Shown here in pieces: positions 61,746 to 64,000 of a DNA stretch of 64,000 bases; position 1 is the stretch's first letter; each line of letters opens with the position of its first letter. The notes beneath the pieces are model-generated. The model was not told the DNA's origin and ran no database searches. It saw nothing but the letters and a program-made list of their open reading frames with translations. Made by a program: the position numbers and the translations under genes. Source of the stretch: Acetobacter malorum (GTDB taxonomy: Bacteria; Pseudomonadota; Alphaproteobacteria; Acetobacterales; Acetobacteraceae); assembly GCF_002153605.1 (NCBI RefSeq), contig NZ_JOPG01000001.1:1-64000 (forward strand). Reading direction: 5' to 3'.

Positions 61746-62768
61746 TCACAACGCCGCAGTATGACGAAGCAAAAACGCATCAAGCCTTTCAAGCTGGTGC
61801 GTCAGAGCGTCATCATTCAGGAAAGAGCCGAGGAAACTGTTCCGCGCCAGCGTCGCAACATCCCGGTTTGACAGTTTCCCGGCATCGACAAGGGCGCGGT
61901 AATTCTCCGCAACGTAGCCACCAAAATAGGCCGGATCATCCGAGTTCAGGGTCGCCCGTAGTCCTTTTTCCAGCATGATATCAATGGGGTGGTCCCGCAG
62001 ATCTTCCACCACGCACAATTTGAGGTTGGAGAGCGGGCAGACGGTCAGGGTCATGGCGTCCCGCGCCAGACGGCTGGTCAGAAAAGGATCTTCCAGTGAT
62101 CGGTTGCCGTGGTCCAGTCGGTCCACCCGCAGGATATCAAGGGCTTCATACACATAGGCAGGCGGTCCTTCTTCCCCCGCGTGCGCCACACGCTTCAAAC
62201 CGGCATCGGCTGCGGCGGCAAAGACTTTTGCAAATTTTGAAGGCGGATGCCCGACTTCTGAAGAATCCAGCCCGACACCGCTAATCTGCCCGAACCATTT
62301 TTCAGCAGAGCGGAACGTTGCAAACGCGGACTCTTCATCCAGATGCCGCAAGAAGCACAGGATCAGCAGAACGCTCATACCATGCCTGCGTCGGGCCTCC
62401 TCCACGCCCGCGAGTAGCCCTTCCATCACCACATCAAATGGCACACCCCGCAGCGTATGCGTCTGAGGATCAAAAAAGATCTCGGCATGCGTTACGCCAT
62501 CTGCCGCAGCGCGGTCAAAATAGGCGACGGCCAGATCCCGAAAATCCTCCGCCGTCAGCAGCACATCAGCCCCGGCGTAATAGATATCCAGAAAATCCTG
62601 CAATTTTGTAAACTGATACGCCTTGCGCACATCCTCTACAGAAGAAAACGGGATGGAAACCCGGTTCCGCCGTGCCAGTGCAAACATCAGTTCCGGTTCC
62701 AGACTGCCTTCAATATGCAGATGCAGTTCCGCCTTTGGAATAGCCGTAATAAAATCCTGCCCGTGCAT
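61746..62768 (-). CDS. Adenosine deaminase family, probably adenine deaminase
   Basis: A 340-residue TIM-barrel zinc deaminase. PKAELHLHIEGSLEPEL (about 11-27) binds zinc; HAEIFFDPQTHT, VGLDSSEVGHPPSKF (about 178-192), VAHAGEEGPP (His and catalytic Glu) and TLNSDDPAYFGGY (zinc Asp) follow. The DSSEVGHPPSKF stretch is the mark of the adenine-deaminase branch (bacterial and fungal type) rather than true adenosine deaminase, so the likely reaction is adenine to hypoxanthine plus ammonia. It serves purine salvage. It is convergent with galM and divergent from the unknown gene on the right. Confidence 0.88.
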   Translation of the reverse strand: MHGQDFITAIPKAELHLHIEGSLEPELMFALARRNRVSIPFSSVEDVRKAYQFTKLQDFLDIYYAGADVLLTAEDFRDLAVAYFDRAAADGVTHAEIFFDPQTHTLRGVPFDVVMEGLLAGVEEARRRHGMSVLLILCFLRHLDEESAFATFRSAEKWFGQISGVGLDSSEVGHPPSKFAKVFAAAADAGLKRVAHAGEEGPPAYVYEALDILRVDRLDHGNRSLEDPFLTSRLARDAMTLTVCPLSNLKLCVVEDLRDHPIDIMLEKGLRATLNSDDPAYFGGYVAENYRALVDAGKLSNRDVATLARNSFLGSFLNDDALTHQLERLDAFLLRHTAAL

Positions 62769-62945
62769 TGCCGCTCCTTCTGGTTAAACTGTCCGGTGAA
62801 AATAAAATCAGTTAAGGCCAGAACAGCACCCTAACGCAAATTTGCCGTATGATCCCTCGTATACGTCCCCTTACTGCCTTGTCTTCACGGCAGTATCTTC
62901 TATAAAATGAAACCGTATTTTTAGAGATTTCAGGCGACTTTTATT

Positions 62946-63770
62946 ATGGATTGTACTCTTCTCATTACGCGGGAACCTTTCCCAATACAGGGCGAGAGCC
63001 GCCCTGTCCTGCGCATCATGCCGGATGCTGTATATGCACTGGTGGTAACAGATCCTACGCTTGATTTTGAAGAAAGTGCCACAGACCCCGGCTACGGAAC
63101 CATTTTGTATAAAAACCCGGACCCGGCTGAGAGCCCGCAGGTCCATAGATTTCCCTTCACCAGAGAGGGTATTCGCAGCGCCAGTGCGGAAGCCCCGATT
63201 GTTCTCAAGCTCCTTGATCTTGCCAAAACACTCAAAGCCCATGTTCTGAGTGATCATGGTGCACTCTATTTCAAAGATGCGAGCGGTTTACTGAATATTA
63301 CTGAAGATCAGAGCGCAAAAAGTTATCTTGTGGGGGACAAGGGGAAACGCTACGCCCTTACCCCCGATGGCGCTCTGGCTGAGCCTGCGTGCCTGCCCGA
63401 TTATCTGGCCGAGAATAAATTTTCTTTTTTGCCAGACAAACCTGAAAACACGCAGAGAAAAAGCAGGACGCCAGCACCCGCTCTTTTAAAAGGACTAGGC
63501 ACCTTTAAGTGCTCACTTTTCAGCAAAGCGCACCAGAAAAACGTCATGCTCTCCGTTCATGCTTACTATGTCTGGGGCCTGGGCTTTCTCAGCGGCATGA
63601 ATTTTGCCTATCAGGACAGTCCTGAAGAGAACGTCACTTATCCCCACACAAAAACGAGCATGCACGAAGATATTGCATTTTTATATGCCTATTGCACACG
63701 TAACCCTGATGAAATGTTCGTTTCAGCTTGTATGGCGCTGCATTACATGCGCATGCAACGGCAGTCGTAG
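62946..63770 (+). CDS. Protein of unknown function, first of two tandem paralogues
   Basis: A 274-residue protein with no recognised domain. The first ~50 residues (MDCTLLITREPF, then VVTDPTLDFEESATDPGYG) resemble the start of the next gene. Residues 60-150 look globular; about 155-185 is Lys/Pro-rich; the end (SVHAYYVWGLGFLSGMNFAY, MHEDIAFLYAYC, MALHYMRMQ) is aromatic and may hold one weak hydrophobic segment. No signal peptide. The ribosome binding site is weak. The gene is AT-richer than the housekeeping part. The 177 bases before it separate it from the divergent deaminase gene. Confidence 0.65.
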   Translation: MDCTLLITREPFPIQGESRPVLRIMPDAVYALVVTDPTLDFEESATDPGYGTILYKNPDPAESPQVHRFPFTREGIRSASAEAPIVLKLLDLAKTLKAHVLSDHGALYFKDASGLLNITEDQSAKSYLVGDKGKRYALTPDGALAEPACLPDYLAENKFSFLPDKPENTQRKSRTPAPALLKGLGTFKCSLFSKAHQKNVMLSVHAYYVWGLGFLSGMNFAYQDSPEENVTYPHTKTSMHEDIAFLYAYCTRNPDEMFVSACMALHYMRMQRQS

Positions 63771-63847
63771 AAACCCGTCAGTCTTCTTTTCATCCTCCCC
63801 ATTAAACATTCGCGCCATTCAGCCAGACACGCAGGAAAAACCACACA

Positions 63848-64000
63848 ATGGGATATGAGATTACAATCACACGCGAAGCAGGCTGCTGGGATGACGAGAC
63901 CGCAGGTCGTCCCCTTTTGGAGTTCCAGCCCGAAATTGTACATACCGTTCTTAAGGCTGATCCCACTTTAGAATTTGAACCGGGCAAAAAAGACCCCAGA
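63848..64000 (+). CDS. Second tandem paralogue, cut by window end
   Basis: An ATG at 63848, with AGGAAA ten bases upstream, opens a frame that is still open at base 64000 (51 codons). MGYEITITREAG and VLKADPTLEFEPGKKDP line up with the start of the preceding protein: both have ITRE near residue 6, then a DPTL(D/E)FE block near 35-42, then DP. It is thus a duplicate or divergent paralogue. Function unknown. Confidence 0.65.
   Translation, partial: MGYEITITREAGCWDDETAGRPLLEFQPEIVHTVLKADPTLEFEPGKKDPR

Follow-up and report, generated by a model that had tools for sequence, protein, structure and literature searches.

A two-gene accessory cassette of Acetobacter malorum encodes paralogous proteins with a mobile head domain and an HdeA-like tail, possibly of orphan immunity type

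Results

Two full-length paralogues at the right edge of the window

The stretch of DNA analysed here (the window, 64,000 nucleotides) corresponds to bases 1–64,000 of a 252,721-base contig (G000:C1; G000 denotes this genome). At its right end lie two adjacent genes, A and B, the second of which runs past the window edge (Table 1). A first-pass annotation of the window had described them as neighbours that share N-terminal motifs, contain no known domain and are AT-richer than their surroundings, and this description was borne out. Both open reading frames were confirmed, with ITRE at residues 7–10 of either protein and the motif DPTL(D/E)FE present as DPTLDFE at residues 36–42 of protein A and as DPTLEFE at residues 38–44 of protein B. 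Searches of Pfam, NCBIfam and PADLOC returned no match for either protein at E ≤ 1, gene B had two weak PHROGs matches, the better one at E 0.021, and a PDB sequence search with gene B found no match. GC content is 49.8% for gene A and 44.1% for gene B, against 55.9% and 63.1% for the left and right flanking genes and 59.7% for the window. By their sequences, the left flanking gene is probably adenosine-deaminase-like (add-like) and the right one probably MRJP-like.

The same annotation had proposed a shared head followed by differing remainders, a misreading that arose because the window edge cut gene B. Proteins A and B align over their full length, with 97 of 275 positions identical (35%, E 6e-49), and are thus paralogues of one two-domain architecture rather than the product of a chance N-terminal match. 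The array had also been suspected to continue past base 64,000; when the contig was extended rightward, it ended at the two genes and was followed by the MRJP-like gene. A third, shorter member of the family (243 aa) is encoded further along the same contig.

Table 1. Features of the gene pair and its surroundings (contig coordinates; the window ends at base 64,000)
Feature	Position	Strand	Remarks
Left flank, add-like gene	61746..62768	-	177 nt from gene A, divergent
Promoter-like site TTGTCT-18-TAAAAT	62879..62908	+	5' of gene A
Gene A (P0001, 274 aa)	62946..63770	+	ORF; MGYDVxITR-type head and HdeA-like tail
Head domain of gene A	62946..63281 (about residues 1–112)	+	alpha/beta; profile match E 8.9e-35 to alignment A2, which itself includes the gene A sequence
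Second copy of hairpin-like motif	63318..63377 (residues 125–144)	+	after the head; restricted to long-form proteins
HdeA-like helical domain of gene A	63483..63767 (residues 180–274)	+	C..F and YC cysteines; hhalign and fold rows
Gene B (P0002, 286 aa)	63848..64000, end at contig base 64708	+	first 51 residues inside the window
Right flank, MRJP-like gene	64813–66030	-	3' of gene B, opposite strand
Third family member (L011)	92804–93535	-	shorter form

The promoter-like site upstream of gene A has a similar stretch in a second genome, G034, as judged by eye; taken alone it is weak, since the scan of the region yielded seven promoter-like sites against 2.6 expected. Downstream of gene B, a hairpin followed by a T-run is kept in G034 (z -4.5 in G000, -6.0 in G034). 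The terminator scan, run with a loop limit of 8, listed no plus-strand site around the gene pair.

The pair is present or absent at a fixed site and evolves faster than its flanks

We compared the site in three genomes (G000, G034 and G009). The interval between the add-like and MRJP-like genes measures 2,044 nt in G000, where it holds the pair, and about 20 nt in G009, where the pair is missing and the add-like and MRJP-like proteins are 97% and 95% identical to those of the window. In G034 the pair occupies this site as it does in G000. More broadly, homologues were found in 6 of 61 genomes, this one included, all belonging to the same genus (6 of its 37 genomes).

The G034 orthologues of gene A (P0007) and gene B (P0008) are both 77% identical in amino-acid sequence to their G000 counterparts, as compared with about 97% for the flanks. 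The dN/dS ratio between the two genomes is 0.23–0.28 for gene A and 0.19–0.20 for gene B, against 0.03–0.05 for the flanks; taken with the difference in identity, this indicates that both genes are kept by selection yet change faster than their surroundings. The average dN/dS of genes A and B gave no sign of positive selection. Synonymous divergence was also higher in the pair (dS 0.5–0.7) than in the flanks (0.3–0.4), which could reflect exchange by transfer. For each gene, identity to the G034 counterpart (77%) exceeds identity to the adjacent paralogue (35%), so the duplication predates the split between G000 and G034. In agreement with the idea of an accessory family of tandem paralogues, the pair thus combines presence or absence at a fixed site, low GC, fast evolution and a patchy distribution (6/61).

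The third copy in this genome (G000:C1:92804-93535, minus strand) is 95% identical to a copy in A. orleanensis (L008/L015/L029), which adjoins a TIR gene. At the sequence level, the third copy suggests a recent transfer. Among plasmids, 17 records were matched with the third copy and 18 with a head domain from Pantoea, and gene B had no match. A phage origin was considered and discarded: three queries found no match in the phage collection, and none of 72 pattern matches in viral_contigs was confirmed.

A head domain shared across phyla

The head spans about 110 aa and follows the pattern MGYDVxITR ... K.PD ... KM..IA..L.A.V.GD.GE.Y. A scan of genome_contigs confirmed 41 head loci among 106 pattern matches, which by their record titles come from Pseudomonadota, Actinomycetota, Bacteroidota, Planctomycetota, Verrucomicrobiota, Bacillota and Acidobacteriota. 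Alignment A4 comprises 37 of these 41 loci (without L032, L064, L065 and L067) and A9 comprises 36 (without those and L029). Five loci combine the head with an HdeA-like tail, three with other tails (L049, L057, L059), and the other 33 encode stand-alone heads or short ORFs. In a planctomycete (L049:3050-3742) and a Pedosphaera MAG (L057:8001-8618), the head is fused to another C-terminal part that is mutually similar between the two. Within the window's phylum, the domain turned up in at least 2 of 398 genomes, this one included, and within one family, apparently Enterobacteriaceae, in at least 14 of 246; both searches began with a loose first look. Within those 14 genomes, matches were partial in G826, G867 and G666 and contained stop codons in G856 and G666, and sequences were taken from 12.

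Pfam searches with the two window proteins, seven homologues and 11 head domains gave no convincing family (best stray matches E 0.017 to 0.14), and no Imm family appeared in these scans up to E 1. In the predicted model of protein A, pLDDT lies between 85 and 94 in 11 of the first 12 ten-residue blocks and falls to 64 at residues 11–20; a stand-alone head was modelled with pLDDT 92 and pTM 0.86. Structural comparison of the latter ranked ZipA first (Z 7.0, rmsd 3.6 over 96 residues, 5% identity), followed by SirA (Z 5.7) and TBP (4.8), with RnlA (4.6) also listed, where Z values below 8 may mean merely a common arrangement. With the same model, neither the PDB nor the viral library yielded a Foldseek match at E ≤ 0.001. 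McrD, the best PDB Foldseek row, was rejected as a relative (E 0.021, TM about 0.3), as were the designed 'Cake' proteins, which a PDB sequence search with A2 matched over a 19-residue stretch only. The PDB sequence search with A8 gave nothing below E 0.4. The ZipA C-terminal domain and TBP-like sandwiches are therefore the top fold rows for the head, yet identity to ZipA is 5% and Z is below 8; on these models we take the head to be an alpha/beta sandwich and claim no relative for it.

Several individual head proteins have features of their own. A WWKFW-like C-terminal end recurs on the stand-alone heads of L038, L039, L042, L044, L053, L058 and L061, and the neighbour of the head gene in L053 (8540-9211) also ends in this way (KSWWQFW). 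On a Paraburkholderia plasmid (AP028203.1, L022:5947-6309), the head protein has a signal peptide by eye, and from this sequence an exported form of the domain may exist. The head protein of an E. coli plasmid (CP088875.1, L021:6001-6417) is annotated as thioredoxin; the thioredoxin family was absent up to E 1 from the Pfam scan of A2, which includes this protein.

A tail most likely of the HdeA superfamily

Between head and tail lies a second copy of a hairpin-like motif (VGDxGxxYxxxxxGxL). When this internal repeat was compared with shuffled sequences, the number of shuffles per 1000 that reached its score was 9 for gene A, 46 for gene B, 0 for both the A. indonesiensis and the A. tropicalis proteins, and 8 and 178 for the two G034 proteins.

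Pfam gave no direct PF06411 (HdeA) match for the window proteins at E ≤ 1, and a search of this genome with the PF06411 model was empty. Profile–profile comparison by hhalign aligned the tail with a PF06411-derived alignment of 14 HdeA proteins (A10, from 14 of 20 PF06411 loci) at 92.9%, E 3.8e-7, and at 94.3%, E 9.5e-8 after three secreted relatives had been added to the tail. The head domain, as a control, reached 0.6%. Rap1a (PF18602) was rejected as the identity of the tail, with control values of 14.6% and 7.8% against 12 Acetobacteraceae PF18602 proteins (A6, from 12 of 20 PF18602 loci). The model of protein A (pLDDT 82, pTM 0.54) has HdeA, YmgD, HdeB, HdeA and HdeB as its top five structural rows (Z 8.1 to 6.8, in a range below about 13 that can be common for helical bundles), and HdeA (1bg8) superimposes on the tail with Z 8.1 and rmsd 3.6 over 76 residues. 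Foldseek with this model gave no match at E ≤ 0.001, with YmgD at rank 4 (E 0.89); a fold relative for the whole protein was discarded, the best row having E 0.56.

The tail cysteines, in C..F and YC, align with those of HdeA, and both are found in genes A and B and in both G034 orthologues. Loci L027-L031 and this genome's third copy lack the second cysteine, and L028 has neither. The tail shares with HdeA, HdeB and YmgD (PF06411) a profile match, aligned cysteines and, weak by themselves, helical fold rows, and differs from them in being fused behind another domain, in its lack of a visible signal peptide and in the missing direct Pfam match. On the profile comparison and the fold rows together, it is most likely an HdeA-superfamily domain.

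Among the 41 loci, the five that join the tail to the head (L027-L031) all come from acetic acid bacteria, either Acetobacter or Neokomagataea. A search of 200 genomes of the family with the tail profile A5 matched five: this one, one further head-plus-tail fusion and three in which proteins of 135-172 aa, seemingly with signal peptides, matched weakly (E 3.7e-7 to 9.7e-5). By eye, no signal peptide is visible in proteins A and B, in which the head starts at residue 1 and no hydrophobic N-terminus can be seen.

Head genes elsewhere occur in immunity-type and mobile contexts

To describe the surroundings of the head genes we used a set of 59 small neighbours (ORFs of at most 265 aa on the same strand, predicted with a home-made gene caller, with three added by hand from L022), for which 25 of the 48 matched families were listed. 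In Paraburkholderia nodosa (L051), the head gene adjoins a Tsi6-like gene (E 7e-6; its 26.5 bits fall just short of the 26.9 cut-off), an Imm35 gene (E 9e-10) and a DUF6630 gene. The first two neighbours are the same in P. ultramafica (L032); Tsi6 matched two of the 59 small neighbours, the second presumably being that of P. ultramafica, which is 89% identical. In Paenibacillus cellulosilyticus, the head gene is the third after a gene for a 2,033-aa RHS protein. Immunity-type contexts were thus found in two lineages, Paraburkholderia and Paenibacillus. A possible YD/RHS fragment noted by eye beside the head in L033 was dropped, as Pfam returned no family for it.

Other head genes are found on mobile DNA: within a transfer cluster of ICE type carried by a Pantoea plasmid, beside DUF2199 and transposase genes on a Paraburkholderia plasmid, with an integrase and AlpA in a stretch of E. 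coli plasmid, and with MobA/MobL in Neokomagataea. In a planctomycetote (BJHQ01000008.1, L061:3500-13000), the head gene forms one of the cassettes in an array that resembles an integron and contains 16 attC-like repeats (GCCCAAC...GTTGGGC) spaced 463 to 984 bases apart. Among the matches listed, ordinary genes flank many of the stand-alone heads, as judged by eye.

Discussion

Taken from sequence, the pair looks like a small transferable protection module, possibly directed against the toxins of rival bacteria. We tentatively read it as a two-gene accessory cassette of two diverged orphan immunity-type proteins. Each protein joins an alpha/beta head of the MGYDVxITR type to a helical tail, most likely of HdeA fold, and since no signal peptide is visible, each should act in the cytoplasm. 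There it would bind an incoming toxin domain from a competitor and block it, and the duplication would let one cell cover two toxin variants. Orphan or tandem immunity genes that lack a toxin are well established, described as polyimmunity loci (PMC3482391), and a working orphan immunity gene has been reported (PMC10539506). The pair matches polyimmunity loci in being formed by tandem full-length paralogues that are accessory, fast-evolving and patchy and adjoin no recognisable toxin gene: none was recognised by eye among the ORFs of the 15 kb around it. The likeness to the systems of these two papers (PMC3482391, PMC10539506) lies in tandem small paralogues without a toxin and in a head that elsewhere accompanies Tsi6-like and Imm35 genes; the differences are that the A. 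malorum proteins are larger and two-domain, that Pfam gave them no Imm family up to E 1, and that no RHS or T6SS marker was found in the genome.

The immunity-type nature that had been suggested for these genes from the start therefore finds backing in contexts elsewhere (Tsi6-like and Imm35 genes in Paraburkholderia, an RHS gene in Paenibacillus) and none in this genome, in which searches found no RHS repeat and no T6SS sheath gene (VipB). A search for the CDI marker PF05860 was likewise empty but is given no weight, since its control matched nowhere either. Because the context comes from two lineages, with no partner toxin and neither of these markers in the genome, we hold the orphan-immunity reading as a possible one, somewhat short of an even chance.

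The head could alternatively be a part, helper or regulator of anti-phage systems, carried as accessory cargo of defence islands, which we consider unlikely. Such genes do lie near heads: SIR2 and HerA in L159, MmeI-like type IIG enzymes in two distant lineages (L163:2785-5568 and L027:6865-9621), an RT-Toprim gene in L165, a TIR gene in L015, a NERD+UvrD-type helicase in L160 (best model C3a187, E 6.5e-37, with GajB weaker) and a protein with QatA matches in L164 (E 1.2e-18). However, these neighbours are ten hand-picked proteins, eight of which have PADLOC matches, accessory genes often occupy such islands, and the defence systems vary from place to place; the window proteins themselves match no PADLOC family (E ≤ 1), and by eye no defence gene adjoins the pair. 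The HdeA relationship of the tail instead invites the idea of a cytoplasmic acid- or acetate-stress chaperone, in which, on acidification of the cytoplasm, the tail would hold proteins that are unfolding, with the head as a targeting domain. The occurrence of head and tail together only in acetic acid bacteria (5/41 loci) fits this proposal, but a local gene fusion can account for the restriction, because the family also contains weak tail relatives that seem to carry signal peptides. A core stress function would hardly be expected to leave homologues in just 6 of 37 same-genus genomes, the head spreads beyond acid niches, and HdeA acts in the periplasm, whereas proteins A and B have no signal peptide by eye. 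On sequence grounds, a chaperone role is accordingly quite improbable. HdeA is mentioned in the literature as a protein that reaches the periplasm (PMC10933484).

The pair might also be an antitoxin-like or sensor gene unit for some ligand, kept as a selfish or regulatory element. It is compact and followed by a hairpin and T-run, and the head's fold rows include RnlA, an E. coli toxin (Z 4.6). Nevertheless, the 2 kb unit has no third gene, the terminator scan did not list the site after gene B, and a Z of this size may be merely a common arrangement; we regard this explanation as very unlikely.

Returning to orphan immunity, a broader version is that the MGYDVxITR domain defines a superfamily of mobile immunity proteins that crosses phyla and has yet to be described, and that acetic acid bacteria have recruited the HdeA fold to it as a second, cytoplasmic module for toxin binding or assistance in folding. 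We put this forward as a doubtful proposal.

Orphan immunity genes and accessory tandem genes are already known. The architecture reported here, in which an HdeA-like tail follows an unnamed mobile head and no signal peptide is visible, appears to be new as far as the libraries searched are concerned. A head of 110 residues that occurs in several phyla and in mobile contexts, with no convincing Pfam match for the 11 examples tested, makes a good candidate for a new family of immunity or defence proteins. In the acetic acid bacteria, the HdeA-like tail, for which no signal peptide is visible, would put a periplasmic acid-chaperone fold to an unusual use.
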